A stretch of 44,489 bases of DNA. Origin: a virus. The first letter of the stretch is position 1, and every line of letters begins with the position of its first letter. The notes beneath the pieces were generated by a model. It had not been told where the DNA came from. It saw only the letters and a list, made by a program, of their open reading frames with translations, and searched no databases. Made by a program: the position numbers and the translations under genes. Location: positions 1 to 44,489 of the IMG/VR virus record IMGVR_UViG_3300024358_000491, one strand, 5' to 3'. Of the stretch, positions 5,896 through 33,387 are shown one piece after another.

Positions 5896-5971
5896 GCGCT
5901 AGTAGCCAAGTGGAACGGCAGGAGCCTCTAAAACTCCAGAAGCGTGAGTTCGATTCTCACCTAGCGCACCA
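5896..5971 (+). tRNA. tRNA with anticodon CUA (amber suppressor tRNA)
   Basis: A complete 76-nt cloverleaf. The acceptor stem GCGCTAG/CTAGCGC is perfect over 7 bp, with discriminator A and an encoded CCA (5969-5971). The T-arm is GTGAG/CTCAC around TTCGATT. The anticodon arm is GGAGC-CTCTAAA-ACTCC (5921-5937), with the last stem pair (C-A) mismatched. The anticodon at 5928-5930 is CTA, which reads UAG. The D-arm (GCCAAGTGGAACGGC) and short variable loop look most like tRNA-Gln, so glutamine insertion is an inference. A gene with an in-frame TAG lies 2.3 kb downstream. Confidence 0.9.
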
Positions 5972-8918: not shown

Positions 8919-9626
8919 ATGATATTACATGCATTTGGTGATAGTTTTGTTTCGGGGTACCAGGACGATTTTATCCATATATTAGGATACGATCCTGGTC
9001 ACGGAATGGAATTTGAAGAACGAGAAGAATATCTAAAATACAATGTAAGTTTTGCAGCATTAATTGCCAAACATCTTGGATTTAAATTTAAAAATTATGC
9101 AGAAAGAGGGAGTGGAAATTTTCCTCAGCTTGATAAATTAACAACAAGATTGCGAGCCGGAAAAATAAAATCTGGAAACATTGTATTATTTGGAATTACA
9201 ACGCCAATTCGAGATAGACTTTTTTTTGCCGAAGATGTTAAAATTCATAATGAAGAATTAAGTGGACCAATTTTAATCGATAGAGAACTAATAACATCTC
9301 AAAGATTAGACAAAGTAATTGATTCTGATTATTTTTATATTCTTTGTATATTAGAACAACTTGAAAGAATTTTTGGAATAAAAATAATTAAATTTAATCT
9401 ATTTGGAACACCTCCTCCCGTTCCTTATAATTTTATAAATTATATCAACGAAGGAACATTAATTGATATTTTAAATGATACATGGGGGCAAAAAATAAAA
9501 AATCAGTATCATACCAATATTGATGTTCCGGCGGGTTACGAAAATTTGTATACTTTGAAAAAACATCCGTCGATTGAAGGGCATAAAAAAATAGCATCTT
9601 GGTTTATTAATAATGTTAAACTATAA
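8919..9626 (+). CDS. SGNH/GDSL-type hydrolase
   Basis: 235 residues with the SGNH blocks: GDSF at 8-11 (catalytic Ser), a GSGN segment near residue 66 and HPSIEGHKKIASWF near the C-terminus (catalytic His). Related enzymes are esterases or deacetylases acting on lipids, glycans or peptidoglycan. There is no signal peptide. It is preceded by its own promoter and precedes the tmRNA. A second, smaller SGNH protein is encoded at 11414. The substrate is unknown. Confidence 0.8.
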   Translation: MILHAFGDSFVSGYQDDFIHILGYDPGHGMEFEEREEYLKYNVSFAALIAKHLGFKFKNYAERGSGNFPQLDKLTTRLRAGKIKSGNIVLFGITTPIRDRLFFAEDVKIHNEELSGPILIDRELITSQRLDKVIDSDYFYILCILEQLERIFGIKIIKFNLFGTPPPVPYNFINYINEGTLIDILNDTWGQKIKNQYHTNIDVPAGYENLYTLKKHPSIEGHKKIASWFINNVKL

Positions 9627-9639
9627 TTGTTAAATATAA

Positions 9640-9957
9640 GTTATTGCTGTATGAAGCAGATAGAAAAGTGTTCTGGACGCGGGTTCGACTCCCGCCTGGT
9701 CCACCAGAGAGAGCATTAGAGAACCGTTACTAAGGGCTTTGGCCGCGGTGTAGCAGACGTCATGCTAGTGTTCTCCCTAATGGGCCAGTCAAGGTTTCGA
9801 CAGGGCAAAGAGTAAGGAAGTGGACAGCACGGGAATGTGAAACCCGTAGGGTTGGGGGAACCCGGCCGAAGAAGCAAAAAAAGTAAACGCAAACGATACA
9901 CGTTTCGCATTAGCCGCTTAAGGCTTTGGGTAGCCATACCTCGAAACAGAAAATGGT
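9640..9957 (+). ncRNA. ssrA: Circularly permuted two-piece tmRNA
   Basis: The 3' (acceptor) piece comes first: T-arm GCGGG-TTCGACT-CCCGC (9679-9695), CTGGTCC (9696-9702), A, and encoded CCA (9704-9706). The 5' (coding) piece starts at 9782 with GGGCCAG, which pairs with CTGGTCC over 7 bp including a G3-U70 wobble, the alanine identity pair, then the GGTTTCGACAGGG D-region. The tag frame at 9889-9921 reads ANDTRFALAA then TAA, behind AAAAAAAGTAAAC, close to the E. coli tag context. A terminator follows. It rescues stalled ribosomes. Exact ends of each piece are estimated. Confidence 0.93.
9707..9781 (+). other. Intervening segment of permuted tmRNA
   Basis: Between the acceptor CCA and the coding piece. 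TTAG-AGAAC (9716-9724) pairs with GTTCT-cc-CTAA (9770-9780), closing a stem-loop that should be cut out when the two tmRNA pieces are matured. Confidence 0.75.
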
Positions 9958-9986
9958 AAAAATGGCGTCTTTTGACGCCATTTTTT
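9958..9986 (+). terminator. Intrinsic terminator of the tmRNA gene
   Basis: AAAAATGGCGTC-tttt(g)-GACGCCATTTTTT: a long perfect stem followed by a U-run, right after the coding piece of tmRNA. From 9987 to 10115 there is no ORF; it holds the leader of the outer-membrane barrel gene, with a TATATACT-like -10 near 10010 and a CAGTGTTACTACTG palindrome. Confidence 0.88.
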
Positions 9987-10115
9987 ATTGCATCTGCACA
10001 AGTAAGACTATATACTTGCTAATGATCAGTGTTACTACTGATTATTTTTCTGTCGTGTTGTTATAGGTTTAATACAAAAAGTTATCACACACGATTACAC
10101 ATAAGAGGATATTAT

Positions 10116-10799: not shown

Positions 10800-10871
10800 A
10801 TAATTAAATGTATAGTAAGTGCATAGGACAATATGTCTTACGTAGTTTTCAAACACAGACAAGGAGATAAA

Positions 10872-11405
10872 ATGAAAACGGTTGGTAATAAAATTGAAAA
10901 GTTTGCCGTAACAGGCGTTAACCCAGGTAAGGATGATTTCTTTACTATTACAGACGAAAGCTTCGCTGGCAAGTGGAAAGTAATTGTTTACTATCCAAAG
11001 GACTTTACATTCGTATGTCCAACTGAAATCGTTGCCTATGATAAGTTGGCAGGTGATTTCAAAGACCGTGACGCAGTATTGCTAACAGGTTCAACAGACA
11101 ATGAGTTCTGTAAACTTGCCTGGCAGAAGGCTCATCCAGATCTTGCCAAGATCACACACGTTCAGTTTGCTGACACACAACGTGGTGAGTTGTCATTGAT
11201 TGAGCAACTTGGTGTATTCTATGCTCCAGCAGGTGCCGCACTTCGTGCAACATTCATTGTTGACCCAGACAATGTTATTCAACACGTTACCGTAAACAAC
11301 TTGAACGTTGGTCGTTCACCAGAAGAAACATTGCGTATTCTTGACGCATTGCAAACTGGCGAACTATGTGCATGTAACCGTGCAGTCGGCGGCGAAACTC
11401 TTTAA
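10872..11405 (+). CDS. ahpC: Peroxiredoxin AhpC
   Basis: 177 residues from the ATG preceded by AAGGAGATAAA. Reduces peroxides. The peroxidatic cysteine is in FTFVCPTEIVAYDK (about residue 49); the resolving cysteines are in GELCACNRAVGG near the C-terminus. The two-cysteine ending resembles AhpC proteins served by AhpD rather than AhpF. An AhpD-type protein is encoded 420 bases downstream, which supports that pairing. Cytoplasmic. It adds to the SOD at 628 as an oxidative-stress defence. Confidence 0.94.
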   Translation: MKTVGNKIEKFAVTGVNPGKDDFFTITDESFAGKWKVIVYYPKDFTFVCPTEIVAYDKLAGDFKDRDAVLLTGSTDNEFCKLAWQKAHPDLAKITHVQFADTQRGELSLIEQLGVFYAPAGAALRATFIVDPDNVIQHVTVNNLNVGRSPEETLRILDALQTGELCACNRAVGGETL

Positions 11406-11413
11406 GGACTAAT

Positions 11414-11824
11414 ATGTTAGAATGTTTGATTCTAGGCGATAGCCTTGCAGTTGGTGTGGGACAAGTTCGTACAGAATGTGCGACCTATGCTAAGTCGGGT
11501 ATTAATAGTTACGACTATGTAAATCGTCATGTATTCAATACCGGCGGTAATAATGAAGCTAAAAGTATTATTATTAGCCTAGGATCAAACGATCTTAAGA
11601 ATATTAATACTTTTGAAGAGCTTGATACACTTAGACATTTAATAAAAGCAGACAGAGTCTATTGGATTATTCCTGCTATTAAAGAAGAGAAACGTCAGGC
11701 TGTTCAAAAAGTAGCTGAGAAATATAAAGATTTTGTCATTGATGCCCGGCAACATCAACTTAGTGCAGACGGTGTTCATCCAACCGGCAAAGGATATAAA
11801 TCAATAGCGGAGAAAACAAAATGA
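11414..11824 (+). CDS. Small SGNH hydrolase
   Basis: 136 residues with complete SGNH blocks: ILGDSLAVGVG (Ser10), the SLGSNDLKN block near residue 56 and DGVHPTGKGY (about 118-127) giving the catalytic Asp and His. This is at the lower size limit for the family, and it has no signal peptide. It sits between ahpC and ahpD, with its stop overlapping the ahpD start (ATGA), so it belongs to the same operon. The substrate is unknown. Confidence 0.85.
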   Translation: MLECLILGDSLAVGVGQVRTECATYAKSGINSYDYVNRHVFNTGGNNEAKSIIISLGSNDLKNINTFEELDTLRHLIKADRVYWIIPAIKEEKRQAVQKVAEKYKDFVIDARQHQLSADGVHPTGKGYKSIAEKTK

Positions 11825-12333
11825 CACAATGGGTAGACACACTTAAAGAAGGCTTACCAGAATATGCCAAGGATACAAAACTAAATCTGGACGCAGTAAT
11901 TAAACGCAGTTCGTTGCCAGTTGAAGAAGCAGAAGGTTGCGCACTAGCGGCAGCTATGTCAACAGGTAACGGAAAACTGATCTCTTACATCATGAGCAAC
12001 ATTGCTGATGAGAAAGAACGTGATGCTGCTATGACTGCTGGTTCACTAATGGCACAAAACAATGTATGGTATCCATATGTTGAAATGGTTGGCGGTGACC
12101 TGGAAGGTATTCCGCCGCAGCTAAGAATGAACGCAATTGCCAGCCATGGCGGTACAACTAAGGCTCGATTTGAAAGTTATAGTTTGGCCGCAAGCATAGT
12201 TGGTAAATGCCATTTCTGTGTCAAGGCACATTATGATACATTGAAACAAGAAGGTTATTCAGTTGACCAGCTTCGTGACATTGGCCGTATTGCTGCCGTG
12301 ATTAATAGTCTTGCTAAGGTGTTAAACGGCTGA
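11821..12333 (+). CDS. ahpD: AhpD-like alkylhydroperoxidase
   Basis: 170 residues. The signature CHFC (about residues 131-134) followed by the helix with VKAHYDTL is the CxxC...H active site of AhpD, which recycles AhpC using lipoyl proteins. The upstream helical bundle (EGCALAAAMSTGN, NAIASHGGTTK) matches the family fold and length. It shares an operon with ahpC. The electron donor is probably host dihydrolipoamide enzymes. Confidence 0.9.
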   Translation: MTQWVDTLKEGLPEYAKDTKLNLDAVIKRSSLPVEEAEGCALAAAMSTGNGKLISYIMSNIADEKERDAAMTAGSLMAQNNVWYPYVEMVGGDLEGIPPQLRMNAIASHGGTTKARFESYSLAASIVGKCHFCVKAHYDTLKQEGYSVDQLRDIGRIAAVINSLAKVLNG

Positions 12334-12374
12334 TGGCCTTTTAATGATTATCAGTATGGTTTTTATGGTGTTTC

Positions 12375-12430
12375 TATAATATAATAACGATACATACTAA
12401 TGCAGTATGTTATTACAAAGGAGAAATACT
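12375..12430 (+). promoter_or_regulatory. pqqA promoter and leader hairpin
   Basis: TATAAT at 12375-12380 in an AT-rich gap, then hairpin ACATACT-aatgc-AGTATGT (12392-12410) and an AAAGGAG ribosome binding site (12417-12423) seven bases before the pqqA ATG. Confidence 0.6.
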
Positions 12431-12502
12431 ATGTGGACAAAACCAGAAGCAGTTGAAATGCGTTACGGTTTCGAAGTTACAATGTATGTAATGAATCGAT
12501 AA
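12431..12502 (+). CDS. pqqA: PQQ precursor peptide PqqA
   Basis: A 23-residue ORF with its own promoter, a strong AAAGGAG site and a terminator immediately after. It starts MWTKPEAVEMRYG and ends FEVTMYVMNR. The E-V-T-M-Y core holds the glutamate and tyrosine that PqqE cross-links and that become pyrroloquinoline quinone; N-terminal MW-KP and the C-terminal Arg match bacterial PqqA. No pqqB, C, D or E is in the window, so it would feed host enzymes. The radical SAM gene downstream is not PqqE. The match is from memory of the family and strong for such a short peptide. Confidence 0.88.
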   Translation: MWTKPEAVEMRYGFEVTMYVMNR

Positions 12503-12513
12503 CATAGCAATTT

Positions 12514-12542
12514 AAAAATCCCGCTCAGGCGGGATTTTTTTT
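12514..12542 (+). terminator. Intrinsic terminator after pqqA
   Basis: AAAAATCCCGC-tcag-GCGGGATTTTTTTT: a 10-bp stem with a long U-run, isolating pqqA as a one-gene transcript. Confidence 0.95.
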
Positions 12543-12571
12543 GGCCGCAACAAACATATATTAAATATGGT

Positions 12572-14077
12572 ATGAGAAAAACATTTGATGTAATAATGGT
12601 AACCGATACGGCCACACACCCTAATTGGTCAAGAGGTTATGGAGCCCATAGACTTGCCAGCCATATGAGAAGTCACGGTTTTTCTGTTCTTGTGATTGAT
12701 TTTTCATCGGCAATGAATTTTGATATTTGGAAACAAATATGCAATTATGCAATTGGCGAAAATACTCAAATGATAGGGTTCTCTACAACTTGGTGGCCAT
12801 ATCGAAACCCGTTTGATAATTCTGATACTCCAAATTTTAGAAGATGTAATGTTGAGTGGCAAACAGAAACAGGCGAAAATGATGATATTGATCCTACATC
12901 ACTAACTTATCACGCAGCCACAGGAAAAGCAAAACCTTGGATTGATATAATTAAAGAAAAAAATAAAAAAATTAAAGTAGTTATAGGTGGCCCAAAAATA
13001 GACTATTACAAAGATTTTCCTGCTGATTATTTTATAAATGGATTAGGTGAAAATCAAATACTTGACTTGCTTACACAACCAAAAAGAATCTGGCCAAAAG
13101 TATTAGAGCACGATATAAACTCAAATGCAAGAGAATGGGGTTGGAGAGAAAGCACCACGGTCTACACAGACTTTGATCAAATTAAACCAAACGAAATTCT
13201 TACTTTAGAAATAGCCCGCGGTTGTAAGTTTAAATGTAGTTTTTGTTCGTTTCCTTTGATAGGACAAAAAGACATCGCTAGTTATCTCAAAACAGAAGAA
13301 ACCATTTATCAAGAAATGTTAGACAACTATAATAAATGGGGTACTACTAGATATTTTATTGCCGATGACACCTTTAATGATTCTATAGAAAAATTAGAAA
13401 TGGTAGCAAGAATTAAATCAAAATTACCTTTCGATTTAAAGATTAAAGCCTATATAAGAATTGATGTAATTGCAACACAACGAGAGCAATTAACACTTTT
13501 ACCAAAAACAGGACTGGCTTCGTGTTTTATAGGAATCGAATCGTTTCATCCAGAAGCTAGTAAATTTGCTGGTAAAGGTATGAGTGCCGATAAAAGAAAA
13601 AAAGTTTTATACGACATAAGAGATACGTGGGGTGATAGCGTGTCTTTAAATGCAGGATATATCGTTGGGTTGCCTGGCGAGGATGAAGCATTTGTTCGTG
13701 AACAAGCCAAATGGTTTATGCAAAAAGATTGTCCTATAAATTATGCAGCATCTTTTATTGGGTTAGTCATTAACCCATACCGTCCAGGATCTTATATTGC
13801 AGGCAGTGAGATTGATAGAAACCCAGAGGCATTTGGGTACACCATTCCGGACATGTCAAAACCCAATCACTGGATCAAAAATGACGGAACAGATATAACT
13901 TCTTATATGCAGGCCCAAAATTTAGCCAACGAACTTAACAGGCAAGTTTGGGCTGTCAATCGAGGCGAAGAAGATAATGTGGATTACAAGATTGCAGGCA
14001 GTATACAAGATCCAAAAAATGAATATTTCATTCCGTTGATTGAGATGCTTAAATCTCTTGACATTAACCAAAATTGA
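12572..14077 (+). CDS. B12-binding-type radical SAM protein
   Basis: 501 residues. The N-terminal part (about 1-170) resembles a cobalamin-binding Rossmann domain (IMVTDTATHPNWSRGYGAHR; KVVIGGPKIDYY), and the [4Fe-4S] motif CxxxCxxC is Cys218, Cys222 and Cys225 (ARGCKFKCSFC). The TIM-barrel half contains SCFIGIESFHPEA and NAGYIVGLPGEDE, typical of the BchE/elongator-like class. The SPASM cysteines of PqqE are absent. It is separated from pqqA by a terminator, so a PQQ role is not implied. It needs host SAM and perhaps cobalamin. Substrate unknown. Confidence 0.88.
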   Translation: MRKTFDVIMVTDTATHPNWSRGYGAHRLASHMRSHGFSVLVIDFSSAMNFDIWKQICNYAIGENTQMIGFSTTWWPYRNPFDNSDTPNFRRCNVEWQTETGENDDIDPTSLTYHAATGKAKPWIDIIKEKNKKIKVVIGGPKIDYYKDFPADYFINGLGENQILDLLTQPKRIWPKVLEHDINSNAREWGWRESTTVYTDFDQIKPNEILTLEIARGCKFKCSFCSFPLIGQKDIASYLKTEETIYQEMLDNYNKWGTTRYFIADDTFNDSIEKLEMVARIKSKLPFDLKIKAYIRIDVIATQREQLTLLPKTGLASCFIGIESFHPEASKFAGKGMSADKRKKVLYDIRDTWGDSVSLNAGYIVGLPGEDEAFVREQAKWFMQKDCPINYAASFIGLVINPYRPGSYIAGSEIDRNPEAFGYTIPDMSKPNHWIKNDGTDITSYMQAQNLANELNRQVWAVNRGEEDNVDYKIAGSIQDPKNEYFIPLIEMLKSLDINQN

Positions 14078-19642: not shown

Positions 19643-20662
19643 ATGAGAATTGAAGAAGACATTAAACTTGATTTTAAAGATGTTCTGATTCGTCCTAAAC
19701 GCAGTACTCTTTCTAGTCGCAAAGAAGTAAACTTAAAACGTACATACAAATTTAAGCATAGCGGTACAGAGTGGACAGGAGTCCCTGTTATGGCTGCTAA
19801 CATGGATGGCGTAGGTACTTTGCAAATGGCTCATGCGCTATATGAGCATAAAATGTTTACTTGCTTAGTAAAGAACATTGACACTTTATATCTTCAAACT
19901 ACTACCGAAGATATTGGCGGAAATTATTTTGCTGTAAGCACAGGAACAAGTGACAATGACTTCGAACGCCTGAGCAGAATTCTTAAAGACTATCCAGCAA
20001 TTCATTTTATTTGCATTGATGTAGCTAATGGTTACAGCGAACATTTTGGAGATTTTGTCTCAAGAGTTCGCAATGCGTGGCCTACGCATACAATTATTGC
20101 AGGTAATGTTGTTACTGCGGATATGACACAGGAACTTATTTTAAGAGGAGCAGACATTGTCAAAGTTGGAATCGGACCAGGGTCGGTATGTACGACTAGG
20201 ATACAAACTGGGGTTGGCTACCCGCAACTTTCTGCAATCATTGAGTGCGCTGATGCGGCTCATGGGCTCGGTGCCCATATCATTGCTGATGGCGGTTGCA
20301 CTTGCCCAGGCGATGTGGCTAAGGCATTTGGAGCAGGCGCAGACTTTGTCATGCTGGGCGGGATGCTAGCCGGACACGACGAAGGCGGCGGAAAAGTCGA
20401 AGACGGAATGGTTACATTTTACGGAATGAGCTCGGATACCGCAATGAATAAACATCACGGCGGAGTAGCTGAATATCGTAGCAGTGAGGGCAGGACCGTA
20501 AATATCAAATATAAAGGACCTGTAAATTCTACGGTTCTTGATTTATTAGGCGGTTTGCGTAGTTGTTGCACATATGTAGGAGCAGCTAGTCTTAAACAAT
20601 TAAGTAAATGTACCACATTTATTAGAGTAAACCGCCAAATAAATGACGTTTTTATTACCTAA
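19643..20662 (+). CDS. guaC: GMP reductase
   Basis: 339 residues of the IMPDH/GMPR barrel family. It lacks the CBS domains of IMPDH and has the GMP-reductase length. The catalytic Cys183 is in [20 protein letters not shown], with [26 protein letters not shown] phosphate-binding segments after it and the flap [10 protein letters not shown]. It converts GMP to IMP and so rebalances purines for AT-rich phage DNA. The segment at about 20160-20400 is richer in G+C than its surroundings. It starts two bases after the exonuclease stop. Confidence 0.92.
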
Positions 20663-20700: not shown

Positions 20701-20770
20701 GTTAGCGTACCAGGTGGGCGTTAACAGGGGCAAAGGGCCCAAACAGATCTTACTTTAAAAGGAGATGACT
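20701..20770 (+). promoter_or_regulatory. Structured 5' leader of dnaK (two-hairpin element)
   Basis: Hairpin 1 is GTTAGCGT/GCGTTAAC (20701-20725), hairpin 2 is GGGC-aaagg-GCCC (20728-20740), then TCTTACTTTA and AAAAGGAGA before the start. The hsp20 leader at 22698 has the same order, with the stem bases changed in pairs. Confidence 0.8.
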
Positions 20771-22669
20771 ATGTCTAAGATCATCGGTATCGACTTAGGT
20801 ACCACAAATAGTTGCGTGGCCGTAATCGAAAACGGCAATTCTAAAGTTATTGAAAATAGCGAAGGCGCAAGAACAACACCCTCAATCGTTGCTTACACAC
20901 AAGATGAAATCCTTGTAGGTGCTACGGCAAAACGACAAGCAGTAACAAATCCAAAGAATACAATTTATGCAGCCAAGCGTTTAATTGGACGTAAGTTCAA
21001 AGAACAAGCTGTACAGAAAGACATCGACCTAATGCCATATGAAATTATGGAAAGTAAAAATGGTGATGCATGGGTTCGAGCACAAGGCAAAGAACTAGCA
21101 CCTCCACAGATTAGTGCTGAAGTTCTACGTAAAATGAAAAAGACTGCCGAAGACTATCTTGGTGCAGAAGTTACACAAGCAGTTATTACGGTTCCTGCAT
21201 ATTTTAATGATCAACAACGTCAAGCAACTAAAGATGCAGGACAAATTGCTGGACTAGAAGTTCTTCGTATTATTAATGAACCAACAGCAGCCGCATTGGC
21301 CTACGGTGTTGACAAACAAGATAAATCCGATCGCAAGATTGCAGTATACGACTTAGGTGGCGGTACATTTGACGTATCTATCATTGAGATTGCTAACGTA
21401 GACGGTGATAAACAAATTGAAGTTCTATCAACAAACGGTGATACATTCCTAGGCGGTGAAGACTTTGACCAACGCATCATGGATTACCTATGCGACGAGT
21501 TTAAGAAAGAACAAGGCATCGACCTAAAGAAAGATATGCTTGCCTTACAACGTCTAAAAGAAAGTGCTGAAAAAGCTAAGATTGAATTGTCTAGCTCTGC
21601 TAGCACAGATGTTAACTTGCCATACATTACAGCAGACGCAAGTGGTCCTAAACATATGAACGTTAAGATTACTCGTGCTAAGTTTGAATCAATGGTTGAA
21701 GACCTAATCAATCGCTCATTAGCGCCTTGCCGTCAAGCTATGCAAGACGCAGGCGTGAGTGCCTCCGATATTGACGAAGTTATCTTAGTTGGCGGACAAA
21801 CTCGTATGCCTAAGGTGCAGGAAGAAGTTGAAAAACTATTCGGCAAAGCACCACGCAAAGATGTTAATCCAGACGAGGCAGTTGCTGTTGGTGCTGCTAT
21901 CCAAGGTGCTGTGCTAGGTGGTGATCGCAAAGACGTTCTATTGCTAGACGTTACTCCATTAAGTCTGGGTATTGAAACCCTTGGCGGTGTGATGGCAAAG
22001 ATCATTCAAAAGAACACAACTATTCCTACTAAAGGACAACAAACATTCTCTACAGCAGAAGACAATCAACCAGCCGTTGATATTAAAGTGTTCCAAGGAG
22101 AGCGTGAGCTTGTTCAACATAACAAACTGCTAGGCGAATTTAAGTTAGACGGAATTGTTCCTGCTCCACGAGGCATTCCACAAGTTGAAGTAACCTTTGA
22201 TATTGATGCAAACGGAATCATGCACATCAGTGCTAAAGATAAGTCAACTGGCAAAGAAAATAAAATTACTATTAAATCGGATAGTGGTCTAAGCAAAGAA
22301 CAAATCGATGAGATGATTCGTGATGCTGAAGCTAATGCTGACGCTGACAAGAAAGCACGTGAACTTATTGAAACTAAAAATTCTGCAGAATCTCAAATTC
22401 ATCAAGTTAAAAAAGATCTTGAAGAATTCCGCAGTGAACTTACTGAAACAGAAATTGCTGATATTGAAAAAACAATTACAGATGTTGAAACTGCCGCTAA
22501 AGGTGACAGCGTAGATGCTATTAAAACAGAATTAGAAAAAGTTGTTCCAGCAATGTCAGTGCTTTTACAAAAACGTCAGCAAAAAGAGCAACCTCAAACT
22601 CCAGACGCTTCTGCTAATCCAGAAGATAACGTAGTTGATGCTACATTTACTGAAACTAAAAAAGATTGA
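20771..22669 (+). CDS. dnaK: Chaperone DnaK (Hsp70)
   Basis: 632 residues, full bacterial length. Start at 20771, because the ATG two codons earlier abuts the AGGAG site. The N-terminal ATPase domain has [14 protein letters not shown], the conserved Thr-rich phosphate loops, [13 protein letters not shown] and [14 protein letters not shown]; the substrate domain has [18 protein letters not shown]; the C-terminus ends in an acidic lid ([10 protein letters not shown]). All standard motifs are intact. DnaJ and GrpE are not in the window, so host partners are needed. It is followed by hsp20 and clpS. A complete DnaK is rare on a phage. Confidence 0.96.
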
Positions 22670-22695
22670 CACACAGACAGAAAGATGTTTAAATA
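22666..22695 (+). promoter_or_regulatory. hsp20 promoter region
   Basis: TTGACA (22666-22671) over the dnaK stop codon with TTAAAT 17 bases on, and an overlapping TTTAAATA (22688-22695), one mismatch from NATAAATA. Either places the RNA start near 22700, at the leader hairpin. Confidence 0.55.
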
Positions 22696-22697
22696 AT

Positions 22698-22767
22698 ATT
22701 AGCGGTACCTAAATGGGCCGCTAATGAGCAAAGAGCTCAATTGTTCTTACTTTATAAGGAGACTAAT
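22698..22767 (+). promoter_or_regulatory. Structured 5' leader of hsp20 (two-hairpin element)
   Basis: Hairpin 1 ATTAGCGG/CCGCTAAT (22698-22725), hairpin 2 GAGC-aaaga-GCTC (22726-22738), then TCTTACTTTA and TAAGGAGA. Same architecture as the dnaK leader, including the AAAGR loop and the TCTTACTTTA tract. Confidence 0.8.
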
Positions 22768-23202
22768 ATGAACAATCAACTTGCAAGACTAGATGCTATT
22801 AATAGAGCACTAATTGGTTTCGATCAAATGTTTGATCAAATGGAAAGACGATTCGCTAACAGCGTTTCTAATAATTATCCTCCGCACAACATTTTAAAAA
22901 TGGGAGATAATGAATATTCAATTCAGTTAGCAGTAACTGGCTTTGAAAAAAATGAAATTGCTGTTACCGTAGAAAACAATATTCTTATTGTTAAAGGTGA
23001 AAGTATGACAACAGACTATGCACCTGAACAATATCTGCATCGTGGTTTAGCAACACGTGACTTTGTTAAAGAATTTCCTCTTGCAGAACACATTGAAGTT
23101 GTTGGTGCAGAAACAAAAAATGGTATGCTTACTATCAAATTAGTTCGCAATATTCCAGAATCTGCAAAACCAAAGATCATTGACATTGTAGAGGTTAAGT
23201 AA
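22768..23202 (+). CDS. Small heat shock protein Hsp20 (IbpA-like)
   Basis: 144 residues from the ATG behind TAAGGAGA. The alpha-crystallin domain covers about 33-125: NILKMGDNEYSIQLAVTGFEKNEI, then LHRGLATRDFVKEFPLAEHIEV and ETKNGMLTIKLVRNIPE, typical of the IbpA class. It holds unfolded proteins for DnaK/ClpB refolding. It lies directly behind dnaK and shares its leader RNA, so the two are probably co-regulated. Hsp20 genes are known in cyanophages. Confidence 0.95.
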   Translation: MNNQLARLDAINRALIGFDQMFDQMERRFANSVSNNYPPHNILKMGDNEYSIQLAVTGFEKNEIAVTVENNILIVKGESMTTDYAPEQYLHRGLATRDFVKEFPLAEHIEVVGAETKNGMLTIKLVRNIPESAKPKIIDIVEVK

Positions 23203-23242: not shown

Positions 23243-23548
23243 ATGGGAACACTAACCGACATCGAAATTGATGAAAAAATAAAAGTTACAATTCAACCTC
23301 CAAAGTTATGGAAAGTTATATTTTTTAATGACGACCAAACACCTATGGATTTTGTTGTAGAATTATTGGTAAACATTTTTAAACATAACGAAAATAGAGC
23401 AAGAGATCTTACTTTAGAAATTCATAATACAGGAAGTGCAGTTGCAGGAATTTATCCTCATGAAATTGCTGAACATAGAGGATTAATGGCAACTCAAGTT
23501 TCTCGAACAAACGGTTTTCCATTACAAATACAGGTGGTAGAAGAATGA
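23243..23548 (+). CDS. clpS: Clp protease adaptor ClpS
   Basis: 101 residues with the ClpS core: KLWKVIFFNDDQTPMDFVVELL (the NDD and TPM segments that form the N-degron pocket), and GSAVAGIYPHEIAEHR as the second half. ClpS hands N-degron substrates to ClpAP. It follows hsp20 behind a GGAG site and overlaps the heme oxygenase start. A phage ClpP is encoded at 42.5 kb, but ClpA must come from the host. Confidence 0.9.
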   Translation: MGTLTDIEIDEKIKVTIQPPKLWKVIFFNDDQTPMDFVVELLVNIFKHNENRARDLTLEIHNTGSAVAGIYPHEIAEHRGLMATQVSRTNGFPLQIQVVEE

Positions 23549-24090
23549 GCTTAAGAGAAATCACAAAAGATTTACATCATGAAGCAGAAACAACAAAATT
23601 TGCTAAAGAATTACTTAGTGGTAAAATTGGTGGTAAGAAATATGTAAATTATCTTTACAACCTATTAGCAATTTATGATCCAATTGAATGGTATGCAAGT
23701 CGTCAGGGCATGTTTGAAAAAATGCCGTATTTGCCAAGACTTAAACATATTCATGCAGATTTTAAAGAATTGGACGACGGCGGCTATTTGTATCTAACTC
23801 CGTCTACATTAGAATATCAAGCGTATTTGCATAAGTTAGGTAATGACCCAGAACGCAAACATTTGATTAAAGCGCATTTATATTGTCGACATATGGGCGA
23901 TTTAAATGGCGGGCAAATCATTAAAAAACAAGTAGCTCATATCAGTAGTGGTAAGTTTTATGATTTTAATGATGCAGATACATTAAAGGTACAGATTCGT
24001 CAAGAGCTTACAGACGACCTCGGTGATGAGGCTCGTTTGGCATTTGAATATGCTATTCGAATGATGAAGGATCTCTATGACGGAGAGTAA
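23545..24090 (+). CDS. ho1: Heme oxygenase (biliverdin-forming)
   Basis: 181 residues of the HO family. The proximal His is His11 (KDLHHEAE) and the distal helix is GDLNGGQ (118-124). It opens heme to biliverdin IX-alpha, CO and Fe2+, using ferredoxin. It overlaps clpS by four bases and the bilin reductase by 14 bases, so the two-step heme-to-bilin route is translated together. In cyanophages such genes serve phycobilins; here the neighbours are not cyanophage-like, so the purpose may be iron release, a pigment or light/redox sensing. Confidence 0.93.
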   Translation: MSLREITKDLHHEAETTKFAKELLSGKIGGKKYVNYLYNLLAIYDPIEWYASRQGMFEKMPYLPRLKHIHADFKELDDGGYLYLTPSTLEYQAYLHKLGNDPERKHLIKAHLYCRHMGDLNGGQIIKKQVAHISSGKFYDFNDADTLKVQIRQELTDDLGDEARLAFEYAIRMMKDLYDGE

Positions 24091-24763
24091 TGTTTGGAAT
24101 ACGTTAATTGGAATCCAACAATTACTTGAAGACTCGTTTAACAGAACAGGCACCGAAATACAGGAGCCTGGAATGGATAGGTTTAATCAGCCTGGTTGGG
24201 TCAATCGTGTGTGGTCCAGCGATGCTTATCGTCGTGCTCACATTGATGTAGTAGACGCTAGAGAAACCAAAGGATTGTGGATGATGCATTGTTGCATTTT
24301 CCCTCATATTCATAACTCTGCTCCTATATTTGGTTTTGATGTAATAGCAGGAAAAAACAAGATCACAGGCTGTTTCATAGACTACAGCCCAACTACTAAC
24401 AAACAGCATCCTATGATAGATTATTTTGCTGAAGAAGTTACTAGATACGAGTGGATCCGCAAACGTGAATTACCCGACTGGGCACAGCGTATTTTTAGCT
24501 CTAGTATGGTAGCTGCGGGCAATGTTAAAGACGAATCAGAATTGAAACAGATTACTAGTCTAGCACATATACTGGTAAATCACTACTTAGAAACCGTAGG
24601 TGAAACTAATAATACTACCGCAGATGCAACTTTTGAACAGAATTACTATGCTCAAAATCAAAAACAAAACCCGCATACACCGCGTGTAATGGCTAGTTTG
24701 GGTTTAGACGAGGAAGATGTTCGAGTGTTTATTCAAGAATGCCTGTTCCCAGAAATTCGATAA
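24077..24763 (+). CDS. pcyX: Ferredoxin-dependent bilin reductase, PcyX-like
   Basis: 228 residues. The FDBR core is clear: AHIDVVDARETKGLWMMHCC then FPHIHNSAPIFGFDVIAG and ITGCFIDYSP. His71 and Asp88 align with the catalytic His88/Asp105 of PcyA. It reduces biliverdin to a phycobilin. Overlap with a heme oxygenase gene on a non-cyanophage-like genome matches the PcyX group described from marine viral metagenomes (phycoerythrobilin-forming); that subgroup call is from memory. No ferredoxin is in the window. PcyA or another FDBR class cannot be excluded. Confidence 0.82.
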   Translation: MTESNVWNTLIGIQQLLEDSFNRTGTEIQEPGMDRFNQPGWVNRVWSSDAYRRAHIDVVDARETKGLWMMHCCIFPHIHNSAPIFGFDVIAGKNKITGCFIDYSPTTNKQHPMIDYFAEEVTRYEWIRKRELPDWAQRIFSSSMVAAGNVKDESELKQITSLAHILVNHYLETVGETNNTTADATFEQNYYAQNQKQNPHTPRVMASLGLDEEDVRVFIQECLFPEIR

Positions 24764-26159: not shown

Positions 26160-26642
26160 ATGTCTAAAACAAAAATAATATTAGTGACACTGATGCTGCC
26201 TTCAGTTGTATTGGCAGCAGAACTACAGCATAACTTTAATAGTCCTGCTTTTAACGGGCAAGGCTATAGTTCGCACGTTCTAACAATCAAACAACTTGAA
26301 GATCAAGCAAAAGAAAAGAACAGAGCAGCGGTAGAAGCATTAAAAGCAAAAGCAGAAGCTGAAGCAGCAAATACACCAACTGCACGTTTTATTGCTAATC
26401 TTGAAAGTCGTATCTATTCACAATTAGCTAAACAACTAACTGATAGTATGTTTGGTGAAGGTGCAACCTGTACAACCAGAGGTGTTGTATGCGGAACAAT
26501 TCCAGATATTGGTGGTAATTCAATTAGTTGGAAACTCGGTGATGGCAGTGATAATGGTATGATTGTCATTACAATTCAAAGCCTTACTAATGCCTCGGAT
26601 ATAACAACAATGAAGGTTCCAGCCGGAACGTTTTATTTTTAA
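26160..26642 (+). CDS. csgF: Curli assembly protein CsgF
   Basis: 160 residues. Signal peptide (about 1-19, cleaved after VLA), then ELQHNFNSPAFNGQGYSS, the CsgF N-terminus that plugs the CsgG pore, and TARFIANLESRIYSQLAKQL matching the conserved helix. Two cysteines follow in a C-terminal domain (CTTRGVVCG). CsgF couples secretion to nucleation of curli fibres at the outer surface. csgG follows 11 bases later, the classic pairing. Confidence 0.88.
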   Translation: MSKTKIILVTLMLPSVVLAAELQHNFNSPAFNGQGYSSHVLTIKQLEDQAKEKNRAAVEALKAKAEAEAANTPTARFIANLESRIYSQLAKQLTDSMFGEGATCTTRGVVCGTIPDIGGNSISWKLGDGSDNGMIVITIQSLTNASDITTMKVPAGTFYF

Positions 26643-26652
26643 GGGGCGGTAA

Positions 26653-27813
26653 ATGAAAAAAACAATAATAGCCCTAGGGGTAATCGCTATTTTATCAGGC
26701 TGTGCCACTAGTTCATCAATAAGAGAAAAGATGACCGGTGAACAATTTGATGAGCCAACCGTAGAGCAGAACAAATATCTAAAAAAATTAGGTGACGGAA
26801 TTAGAGCACCTAAAGGTGGACCAATTACCGTAGCAGTATACGGTTTCCGTGATATGACCGGACAACGTAAATCTGTTCCAAATATTGCTAGTTTAAGTTC
26901 AGCAGTTACTCAAGGTGCAGATTCATATCTTGTAAAAGCATTACAAGATGTAGGCAATGCAAGATGGTTTACCGTAGTTGAGCGTGTTGGTCTTGAGAAC
27001 CTAATTAAAGAACGTCAAATGATTCGTCAAATGCGTGAACAATATCAAGGCCGCGATGCTAAACCGTTGCCACCAATGTTGTTTGCAGGAGTTATTATCG
27101 AAGGCGGAATTGTTGGCTACGATTCAAATACATCAACCGGCGGTAGTGGTGCAAGATTTTTAGGAATTGGAGCACAAACACAATATCAAAGTGATACCGT
27201 AACCGTAAATTTAAGAACGGTTAGCGTTTCTACTGGAGAAGTATTGACTAGCATTACCGTTACCAAGACCGTGCTAAGTTATATGGATAAGGTCGGTGTG
27301 TTAAGATTTGTGTCGGCCGGTGAACAAGCAATTGAAGCTGAAATTGGTGCAAGCATTAACGAAAGCATCAATAAAGCAACTAATCTAGCTATTCAAGCAG
27401 CCGTTATAGAAACTATTAATGAAGGTGCCAAAAAAGGACATTGGGCATTTAAAGATGATTTGGTTATAACCCATCCGCTACCTGTTCAACCAGAAATAAA
27501 AATTGAACCTATGGTAGAGGTAAAGGTTGAACCTAAGGCAGAAGTAAAGGTCGAACCTAAGGCAGAAGCAAAACCAGAAGTAAAGGCAGAAGCAAAACCA
27601 GAAGCAAAACCAGAACCAACTCCAGCTAAAGTTCTTACTAAAAAATCAACAACAAGAACAACGGTAAGAGAAAATGATAAGGCTGGATCAACTATCCTTT
27701 CAATATTATCACCAGGGGACGAAGTTGAAGTATTACGAGAACAAGGAAATATGACTTTTGTTCAAACAAAGAGTGGTAAGAAGGGATGGGTAGTAAGTAA
27801 TTTCTTAAAATAA
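26653..27813 (+). CDS. csgG: Curli secretion channel CsgG with C-terminal SH3b domain
   Basis: 386 residues. A lipoprotein signal ends in LSGC (Cys17). The CsgG domain covers about 45-275: ITVAVYGFRDMTGQRK, WFTVVERVGLENLIKERQ, FAGVIIEGGIVGYDSN and the transmembrane-hairpin region QSDTVTVNLRTVSVSTGEV. It forms a nonameric outer-membrane export pore. Unusually, it continues through a Lys/Glu/Pro/Ala-rich linker of repeated VKVEPKAE/AKPE units (about 275-320) into an SH3b domain ending GKKGWVVSNFLK. The SH3 part would face the periplasm and could bind peptidoglycan. Confidence 0.93.
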   Translation: MKKTIIALGVIAILSGCATSSSIREKMTGEQFDEPTVEQNKYLKKLGDGIRAPKGGPITVAVYGFRDMTGQRKSVPNIASLSSAVTQGADSYLVKALQDVGNARWFTVVERVGLENLIKERQMIRQMREQYQGRDAKPLPPMLFAGVIIEGGIVGYDSNTSTGGSGARFLGIGAQTQYQSDTVTVNLRTVSVSTGEVLTSITVTKTVLSYMDKVGVLRFVSAGEQAIEAEIGASINESINKATNLAIQAAVIETINEGAKKGHWAFKDDLVITHPLPVQPEIKIEPMVEVKVEPKAEVKVEPKAEAKPEVKAEAKPEAKPEPTPAKVLTKKSTTRTTVRENDKAGSTILSILSPGDEVEVLREQGNMTFVQTKSGKKGWVVSNFLK

Positions 27814-31142: not shown

Positions 31143-31355
31143 ATGCGTAAATTAACGTTGTTAATTTCATTTATTATTACAGGTTGTGCAACAGGTCCTA
31201 GACCAGTGTCTGCACCACCACCGCCCAGTTGTATTAATATTCCCGGTGAAGGATGTAAACAATTTAATGCTGGTAATAAGGGCGGTACAACACTAGGACA
31301 TCATAACAATGAAGATATCCCTGCCAAAGCTGCCGCAGTTCCAACTCAACCCTAA
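31143..31355 (+). CDS. Small lipoprotein
   Basis: 70 residues. A signal segment ends in ITGC (Cys15), then a proline-rich linker and a CINIPGEGCKQF cysteine pair. Overlaps the cyclase gene start by 47 bases in another frame. It may be a small outer-membrane partner for the curli machinery; function unknown. Confidence 0.7.
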   Translation: MRKLTLLISFIITGCATGPRPVSAPPPPSCINIPGEGCKQFNAGNKGGTTLGHHNNEDIPAKAAAVPTQP

Positions 31356-33387
31356 AAAGATTTTAATCAGTCCTTGGACAGCATTAATAACACTTGTACT
31401 TATTTTAAGTATAAGAATAGCTGATCCTGTCTTTGTAGAAAGTATAAGATTACGTTACTTTGATACGTTAATTACAAGTCAAACACCTACACAAAATAAT
31501 ATTATTACAATTAACATTGATGAAAATGCTTTAGACAAATATGGCCAATGGCCTTTTAAGCGTGATGTTTATGCACAACTTATAGACGAGCTTTATAAAC
31601 GCAACGCTGGTCTAGTAGTATTCAATGTATTAATGACTGAAAAAGATCGTCAAGGAGGCGATGCACGACTAGCAACTACTCTCAGCGACTTTCCTGTAAT
31701 ACTTCCAAACATGCCGGCAGACAGGATGAAAAACACTCCTCGTCAGCCCGGTACAGCCGTTATTGGTTCTGACTTTCAAGAATCAATAATTCAATACCCG
31801 GGTATAATTGCAAATATTTCAGAACTTGAAAAACGAGCGGCAGGTGTTGGTATTGTAAACACACTACCAGAAGTTGATGGAGTTAATAGAAGAATGCCTC
31901 TAGTCGTTAGTGTTGATGGAAGAGTTTATCCAAGTCTGGCCATGGAGGCATTAAGAGTTGCCGCAGGAGATACAACCGTTCAAGTCAAACTTTTTGAAGG
32001 CGGTGTTGAAAAAATGCGAATACCTAAGTTTGGTCCTATTACTACTGATCAATTAGGTCGTGTGTGGATTGACTGGAGTCAACAATCAAAATCATATTCA
32101 ATGACAGAGTTGCCTAAAGACTTTGGCGGTGCTGTTGTTATTGTAGGTGTTGCTGCGGCCGGTTTGGGCAATCCTGTCCCTACAGCAGTAGGCAGCGTTT
32201 GGCCACACGATGTGCAGGCCGCAGTTTTAGGAACAATGTTCAATGGCGTTGTTATTCAAAGACCTGATTATGCCGACGGTGTTGAAATACTAACATTAGC
32301 ATTAGCAGGTATACTATTAATTTTCTTAACGAGGTATGTATATGTCGGATTGGCAACTACAATTGGTCTGGTGGTCATCAGCGGTATTGGCAGTTGGTTT
32401 GTGTTTAATAATTTTCTATGGTTATTTGACGCTACTGCCCCTGGAGTTGGCTTGGTATTGGTCGCTTTGCATGCCTACGGTGTCAAGTTTGTAAGTGAGT
32501 TTTTACAAAAGCAACAAATTAAAAAACAATTTGGTTCTTATGTAAGCCCTGTTATCGTTGAAAGATTACAAAAAGATCCTAGTCTAATTCGTTTAGGCGG
32601 GGAAGAAAAAATGCTCACAGCAGTTATGACTGATATGCGCAACTTCACAGGTCTAGGTGAAAAGTATGGAGCAGACGTTGAAGGTTTTACAGCTATCATG
32701 AATTCTTATATGACAGCAATTAGTAAACCTGTGTTTGCCAACGATGGATGTTTAATTAAATTTATTGGTGATGCATCTTTACATATACACGGAGCTCCGG
32801 TAGATGACGATCGTCATGCTTATCACGGTGTTAAAACTGCTTTAGAAATGATAGAAGCAGTCAACGAATTTAACAAACATCTAGAGTCCATTGGAAAACC
32901 ACCCGTTGGTATGGGAGCAGGTGTTAACACTGGTAAGATTCTAGTTGGTAATATTGGTAGTGAAGGTAAAATGGGTTATGACGTACTAGGCGATCCTGTA
33001 TCGGTAGCAAGTCGACTTGAAGGACAAACAAAAGGTTATGGTGTACTAATCATTATAGGCCCAGATACCTACGAAGAAGTTAAAAATGATTTTACGTGTT
33101 TAGAATTAGATTGTATTGCAGTTAAAGGCAAAGCTATTGGCTTAAACATTTATACTCCAATAACAACAAAAGCTGAGTCGAATGATCTACAAATGCATGC
33201 CGCAATGCTACAATTATATCGTCAACAAAAATTTGATCAAGCTATTAAATTCTGTAAAGATTTAATGGGGAGGTTTGAAGGATCTATGGATCATTATTAT
33301 GAAATATGGATTGAACGTTGCGAGGAGATGAAAACACATGATTTACCCGCAGACTGGGATGGGGTCTTTAGAGCCACTTCTAAATAA
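31309..33387 (+). CDS. CHASE2-domain class III adenylate cyclase
   Basis: 692 residues. First membrane helix about 24-40, CHASE2 sensor (about 42-320; FDTLITSQTPTQNNI, INIDENALDKYGQWPFKRD), three membrane helices (about 328-395), then a class III cyclase. Metal aspartates are Asp442 (VMTDMRNFTG) and Asp488 (KFIGDASLHI); the base-specifying Lys lies just before, and GYDVLGDPVSVASRLEG carries the transition-state residues. All catalytic residues look intact, so cAMP synthesis is likely. CHASE2 senses an unknown periplasmic signal. It ends a cluster of curli and FecR genes, which suggests coupled surface sensing. No comparable phage gene is known to me. Confidence 0.93.
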   Translation: MKISLPKLPQFQLNPKKILISPWTALITLVLILSIRIADPVFVESIRLRYFDTLITSQTPTQNNIITINIDENALDKYGQWPFKRDVYAQLIDELYKRNAGLVVFNVLMTEKDRQGGDARLATTLSDFPVILPNMPADRMKNTPRQPGTAVIGSDFQESIIQYPGIIANISELEKRAAGVGIVNTLPEVDGVNRRMPLVVSVDGRVYPSLAMEALRVAAGDTTVQVKLFEGGVEKMRIPKFGPITTDQLGRVWIDWSQQSKSYSMTELPKDFGGAVVIVGVAAAGLGNPVPTAVGSVWPHDVQAAVLGTMFNGVVIQRPDYADGVEILTLALAGILLIFLTRYVYVGLATTIGLVVISGIGSWFVFNNFLWLFDATAPGVGLVLVALHAYGVKFVSEFLQKQQIKKQFGSYVSPVIVERLQKDPSLIRLGGEEKMLTAVMTDMRNFTGLGEKYGADVEGFTAIMNSYMTAISKPVFANDGCLIKFIGDASLHIHGAPVDDDRHAYHGVKTALEMIEAVNEFNKHLESIGKPPVGMGAGVNTGKILVGNIGSEGKMGYDVLGDPVSVASRLEGQTKGYGVLIIIGPDTYEEVKNDFTCLELDCIAVKGKAIGLNIYTPITTKAESNDLQMHAAMLQLYRQQKFDQAIKFCKDLMGRFEGSMDHYYEIWIERCEEMKTHDLPADWDGVFRATSK

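Follow-up and report, generated by a model that had tools for sequence, protein, structure and literature searches.

The viral DNA analysed here (the window, an IMG/VR virus record of 44,489 nucleotides) carries a pqqA gene, and the reading we prefer, at a probability of roughly 0.8, is that the gene is a genuine pqqA and that its carrier, a T4-like phage, infects a Methylophilaceae methylotroph; the phage would supply only the consumable substrate and leave the host enzymes to finish PQQ. At somewhat better than even odds, we further propose that unrelated lineages of methylotroph phages carry a stand-alone pqqA behind a compact form of an undescribed Methylophilaceae PQQ-regulon promoter, through which a host regulator would induce the gene with demand.

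Identity and coding unit of the window pqqA

The open reading frame with its ATG at 12431 and its stop codon at 12500-12502 encodes MWTKPEAVEMRYGFEVTMYVMNR, a full PqqA of 23 residues. The peptide covers the whole profile of the family and exceeds the curated cut-offs, with 34.9 bits on the equivalog model TIGR02107 (cut-off 20) and, against a threshold of 21.1 for PF08042, 33.7-35.9 bits (E 3.2e-9 in the 44-kb record), and a PqqA profile search of 14 control genomes gave no match. Glu15 and Tyr19 are located in GFEVTMY, which fits the PqqA core G-F/L-E-V-T-x-Y with three residues between Glu and Tyr, and the length, read from its own ATG behind a Shine-Dalgarno motif, falls within the range of about 22-29 residues of PqqA peptides. 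A first-pass annotation, made from the letters alone, had called this frame a PQQ precursor gene and had named a PqqA profile search as the check; the match found, with both scores over the cut-offs, bears that identity out. Adjacency to pqqBCDE is common in PqqA but does not define it, and no pqq enzyme was detected among the scanned window neighbours. Comparison of the window peptide with solved structures gave no meaningful match.

The window pqqA is a self-contained unit, which consists of a host-type operator element, a -10 box, a 5' hairpin leader, a strong Shine-Dalgarno motif, pqqA and a terminator (Table 1). The ribosome site, 5' hairpin and terminator of the first-pass annotation are all present, and the fold of 164 nt with the pqqA terminator has a z of -3.7; the interval given in that annotation, 12375-12542, starts too late, since the conserved element at 12340-12358 belongs to the unit. 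As for the promoter, the TATAAT at 12380-12385 is backed by comparison with related phage and host loci, but not by a simple sigma-70 consensus scan, which gave no forward promoter at pqqA; the terminator rule of the same scan missed the obvious terminator. The leader hairpins of related phages pair other letters (CATACT/AGTATG vs AAGTAC/GTACTT). Because the leader hairpin is significant in only 27% of viral pqqA leaders, with a z near -0.5 in the loci L430 and L436, we do not claim it as universal.

Table 1. Positions of the features in the window and the evidence for each
Feature	Position	Strand	Evidence
Permuted betaproteobacterial-type tmRNA	9593-9987	+	RF01850, 120.9 bits, E 2e-36
AhpD-family alkylhydroperoxidase-like protein, neighbour outside the pqqA unit	11821-12333	+	PF02627, 38.7 bits; TIGR00777, 113 bits (below the curated cut-off)
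Upstream element TTTAATGATTATCAGTATG, candidate activator site of host PQQ-regulon type	12340-12358	+	Conservation across phages
Probable -10 box TATAAT	12380-12385	+	Overlapping TATAAT at 12375-12380; 38 nt from upstream element start
Hairpin CATACT-AATGC-AGTATG, predicted mRNA 5' end	12393-12409	+	Fold z -2.5
Shine-Dalgarno AAAGGAG	12417-12423	+	Sequence; 7 nt before ATG
pqqA, 23 codons + stop, PQQ precursor peptide	12431-12502	+	PF08042, TIGR02107
Intrinsic terminator, perfect stem ATCCCGC-TCAG-GCGGGAT (12518-12535), then T8	12514-12543	+	Sequence
B12-binding/radical SAM protein, neighbour, not PqqE	12572-14077	+	PF04055; TIGR04072/TIGR04479-type NCBIfam families

A homologue of the AhpD-like neighbour, 70% identical, is also located upstream of pqqA in the locus L096. 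The radical SAM neighbour was considered as a PqqE and rejected, TIGR02109 being absent among its NCBIfam matches at E 1e-3. The phage genes of the window include CsgG, CsgF, ribonucleotide reductase, IscU, superoxide dismutase, AhpC, DnaK and Hsp20. The curli pore genes CsgF and CsgG lie at 26160-27813, and the CsgG is related to that of phage Melnitz, with an added SH3 domain. An oxidative-stress set (628-1549 and 10833-12333) consists of an Fe/Mn superoxide dismutase, an IscU scaffold, an AhpC-like peroxiredoxin and the AhpD-like protein; a full-length DnaK (994 bits on NF001413, ~66% identical to bacterial-type DnaK) accompanies Hsp20 at 20765-23202; and an IMP dehydrogenase/GMP reductase-type enzyme (19643-20662) is 83% identical in L096. 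At 23545-24763, a heme oxygenase (PF01126) is followed by a ferredoxin-dependent bilin reductase (PF05996), and the probable host is not phototrophic. A tRNA with the anticodon CTA (5896-5971; RF00005, 56.5 bits), called Pyl by ARAGORN, could be amber-reading because only 1 of the 47 listed genes ends in TAG.

Distribution and conservation of viral pqqA

A phage collection of 50,697 records was searched by tblastn with the window peptide or an OM43 peptide. We found pqqA in all nine cultured Methylophilales/Methylophilaceae phage genomes identified in the collection, which come from dissimilar lineages (P19250A, Venkman, MEP301, the Zobellviridae phages MEP401 and MEP402, and four Melnitz genomes), a count that leaves out MEP431-434 and Venkman EXVC038S, which were not found in the collection. 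A 5.7-kb MEP402 query aligns with P19250A and Melnitz at pqqA alone. Beyond these, the search matched only a podovirus from spring water and two contigs that carry the label Acinetobacter phage. The one of these two that was inspected, L009 (CAKLQF020000010.1), carries ppk and is probably a bacterial contig because pqqBCD and a PqqE-like gene adjoin its pqqA. No feature is annotated at pqqA in MEP401, MEP402, P19250A, Venkman and MEP301, and the ORF listed there in the Melnitz record inspected and in the spring phage runs on the opposite strand. Most gene callers would pass over so short a gene; it is frequent in methylotroph viruses of marine and fresh waters and is without annotation in most of the cultured ones, just as the first-pass annotation had expected it to be missed.

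A pattern scan of IMG/VR detected pqqA on at least 120 contigs, and in all those listed the ORF terminates at the same codon. The flanking genes of viral pqqA fall into 18 groups when loci are joined at two shared proteins; when they are joined at one, most loci come together. Viral pqqA travels alone: the 50 larger viral records searched whole contain exactly one pqqA each, and neither a PqqE over the cut-off nor a PQQ dehydrogenase was found in any of the 50 viral pqqA records. A 104-kb CsgG-bearing phage contig (L435/L441, G169) has an XoxF-type methanol dehydrogenase about 4 kb from pqqA; this enzyme of 621 aa scores 613 bits on TIGR03075, and its best solved relatives are lanthanide-dependent XoxF methanol dehydrogenases. 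The gene is not universal among related phages, being present on 11 of 32 contigs of CsgG-bearing relatives, many of them fragments, and in 6 of 12 relatives of Venkman or MEP402, again with many fragments and with contigs of 35 kb and 42.8 kb that lack it; host differences or fragmentation may explain the absence. Being a metabolic gene of host type that sits in a viral genome and has relatives in other viruses, pqqA is a putative auxiliary metabolic gene.

The 110 distinct viral pqqA sequences encode few peptides, the commonest of which is encoded in 29 ways. Among the residues left free by the search pattern, Arg11 is present in 110/110 and Asn22 in 105/110. Since part of the peptide (W, K, P, G, E, V, T and Y) was already set by the pattern, the pN/pS value of 0.18 carries a downward bias. 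A Shine-Dalgarno-like motif precedes each of the 126 viral pqqA genes examined, and a terminator follows within 90 nt in 45%, vs 2.9% of shuffles.

The upstream element and the host dyad

The alignment of related phages shows TTTAATGATTTTNMGTATG upstream of pqqA. With at most one mismatch, this element occurs once per genome in ten phage records, each time upstream of pqqA and on the same strand; it was found 0 times in the other 15 records, and the reversed-pattern control gave 0. An unbiased 9-mer count returned TAATGATTT in 31 of 118 distinct viral upstream regions (0.6 expected) and ATGAAAATC, which is part of a dyad, in 24 of 49 Methylophilaceae pqqA upstream regions (0.2 expected). The half-site TMATGRTTWT is present upstream of pqqA in 63 of 134 viral loci (0.6 expected), with 4 occurrences in the opposite orientation and none downstream, and about half of the viral pqqA genes are without the element.

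The host dyad, defined here as TMATGA-N3-TCATKA, is located upstream of 35 of the 48 Methylophilaceae pqqA genes (0.6 expected) and upstream of 0 of 70 pqqA genes in other bacteria. Across 29 genomes, each holds between 0 and 8 copies (control 0-2). Of the 44 listed copies whose spacer is AAA or TTT, 33 are followed by a pqqA at a distance of 94-142 nt. The dyad was noted in the host genomes G002, G007, G014, G025, G030 and others, and at the loci L478-L487. Among the inspected sites away from pqqA, one precedes pqqB-pqqC, one lies between xoxF and a MoxJ-like gene, and four precede PqqU-like TonB receptors (best NCBIfam match PqqU, below the cut-off), and at two of these four sites the opposite flank holds a SoxYZ-like quinoprotein carrier; the remainder comprise three near a lipoprotein-like gene without known PQQ link and one inside an ORF. 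The 15-bp dyad TMATGA-W3-TCATKA at Methylophilaceae pqqA, pqqB, PqqU-like receptor and xoxF genes is thus a candidate mark of a PQQ/methanol regulon. The Fur consensus contains TAATGATAATCATTA. A classical Fur regulator seems unlikely for the host dyad, as 0-8 sites per genome, largely at pqqA, are not what a classical iron regulon would show.

The strict host dyad is present in only 1 of the 134 viral pqqA loci, and the window does not carry the full dyad: its element combines the left half TAATGATTAT with a phage-type right half, CAGTATG, and the phage element is asymmetric. Among 37 host promoters, 24 place the -10 box 60-61 nt from the start of the dyad, and a degenerate second copy (TMAT.R.TTT) begins 23 nt into the dyad, that is, 37-38 nt before the -10 box. 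Of 41 phage loci, 24 have the element (TMATGRTTTT with a conserved A at the 15th base) 35-39 nt ahead of the -10 box, vs a mean of 3.3 and a maximum of 10 in shuffles. In the window, the element begins at 12342 and precedes the TATAAT at 12380 by 38 nt, which agrees with the spacing of the host proximal copy. From this match, the phage promoter looks like a compact host pqqA promoter with the proximal site kept. Phage pqqA is probably under the host PQQ/methanol regulator, because its element resembles that of the host pqqA, pqqB, PqqU-like receptor and xoxF genes.

Probable host, proposed role and comparison with known systems

The most likely host of the window phage is a Methylophilaceae methylotroph, on account of the host-type peptide, the betaproteobacterial tmRNA and the nearest cultured relative, Melnitz. 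The beta-type tmRNA is host evidence that does not depend on pqqA; a comparison of the window tmRNA with Methylophilaceae DNA gave short matches only. The window peptide resembles those of Methylophilaceae, with AATEMRFGFEVTMYVMNK or ...VCNR in Methylotenera, Methylophilus and Methylopumilus, and OM43-like genomes have TATDLRFGFEVTMYIAAK. Only eight relatives of the protein at 31309-33387 turn up in the 50,697 phage records, the best being the four Melnitz genomes (42.5%) and then the pelagiphage HTVC008M (34.9%). Methylophilaceae genomes, chosen for having pqqA, hold 1-9 copies each, and 3-12 per genome have been reported, often as orphan copies, in addition to one pqqBCDE set (PMC4109929). 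The PQQ-making methylotroph proposed by the first-pass annotation agrees with this lineage, which has the PQQ pathway.

PqqA is consumed at one molecule per PQQ, so the peptide can limit output, and extra phage peptide may raise it. If the phage shuts down host transcription, host pqqA mRNA would be lost. The host PQQ/methanol regulator would switch on phage pqqA through the host-type element, host PqqE and PqqD would form the cross-link between Glu15 and Tyr19 in the phage peptide, and PqqB, PqqC and proteases of the host would complete PQQ. The cofactor would then charge methanol dehydrogenase (XoxF/MxaF), letting methanol oxidation and energy supply persist after the decay of host pqqA mRNA, and the peptide alone under a host-type promoter would be the cheapest route to continued PQQ. 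Methylophilaceae need PQQ for methanol dehydrogenase (PMC4109929), and this is the relevant enzyme; the role in glucose dehydrogenase also put forward in the first-pass annotation found no support.

That host pqqA was captured passively with its promoter by recombination, without benefit, seems unlikely to us. A control element of the host type and the many pqqA copies held by the hosts would suit such a capture, but the gene occurs in dissimilar lineages (18 flank-gene groups at the two-shared-protein threshold), its frame is intact despite high synonymous divergence, viral pqqA genes have their own terminators, and the promoter is reduced to one element at the preferred spacing, which together argue for selection. 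The resemblance of the phage element to the host operator, together with the binding of PqqA by PqqD, would also fit a decoy, in which the element or the peptide mainly titrates a host PQQ regulator or PqqE/PqqD. We consider this very improbable, since the Glu/Tyr core that becomes PQQ is retained, as are the Shine-Dalgarno motif and promoter for expression, and a few phages also have methanol dehydrogenase (PMC7678222 and L435/L441), which fits a raised PQQ demand.

The B12-binding radical SAM gene begins 70 nt after pqqA, and the two products might make a different modified peptide instead of PQQ. However, a terminator stands between the genes, the matches of the enzyme are to B12 families of the TIGR04072/TIGR04479 type, with no PqqE among them, and the pair is not conserved, as L012 and L096, with the same pqqA, give no radical SAM match though other neighbours match. 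With PqqE over the cut-off in 0 of the 50 viral pqqA records as well, such a product has hardly any claim on the data. A chance ORF might be suspected from 23 codons only, but it is already refuted by the profile matches (E 3.2e-9 in the window record) and the conserved viral copies, every listed one of which has the exact family length.

Read as a substrate gene for host PQQ synthesis, viral pqqA suggests that these methylotroph viruses sustain methanol oxidation via a substrate peptide and not an enzyme. The common control element offers a handle, as a candidate operator, on the regulation of PQQ and methanol oxidation in Methylophilaceae, and pqqA may serve as a host marker for methylotroph phages.

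A PqqA was reported in 2020 in VP_266, a T4-like Methylophilaceae phage from Lake Baikal, with methanol dehydrogenase (PMC7678222), and one reservoir study from 2026 (PMC13188868) also lists pqqA of viral origin. The phage type, host and phage-borne PqqA of VP_266 (PMC7678222) are like those inferred here, and L435/L441 likewise pairs pqqA with XoxF; unlike here, the VP_266 PqqA was reported as one annotated gene, without a cultured-phage survey, a stand-alone test or a control element. In the publications that describe MEP301, MEP401/402 and Melnitz, pqqA goes unmentioned. Relative to the literature found in a limited search of open-access texts, the prevalence in cultured phages, the stand-alone state and the host-type element are new. 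The orphan pqqA genes of Methylophilaceae (PMC4109929) belong to the same peptide family, stand alone and have a proximal element equally far from the -10 box. Unlike the phage genes, which keep one proximal element, they have a distal full dyad and a degenerate proximal copy, and the window peptide reads EAVEMRY vs AATEMRF in the host. Melnitz and HTVC008M share a cyclase-domain protein with the window phage, and Melnitz also shares CsgG; Melnitz has pqqA and HTVC008M, in the same phage collection, gave no pqqA match, so that the gene follows host metabolism. In cyanophages, psbA encodes the photosystem II D1 protein, by which the phage supplies a fast-consumed part of the main energy system of the host. 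Phage pqqA parallels psbA in logic but not in family, and unlike the psbA product, PqqA is a consumed substrate peptide and not a subunit, with a use that here would follow the same principle.
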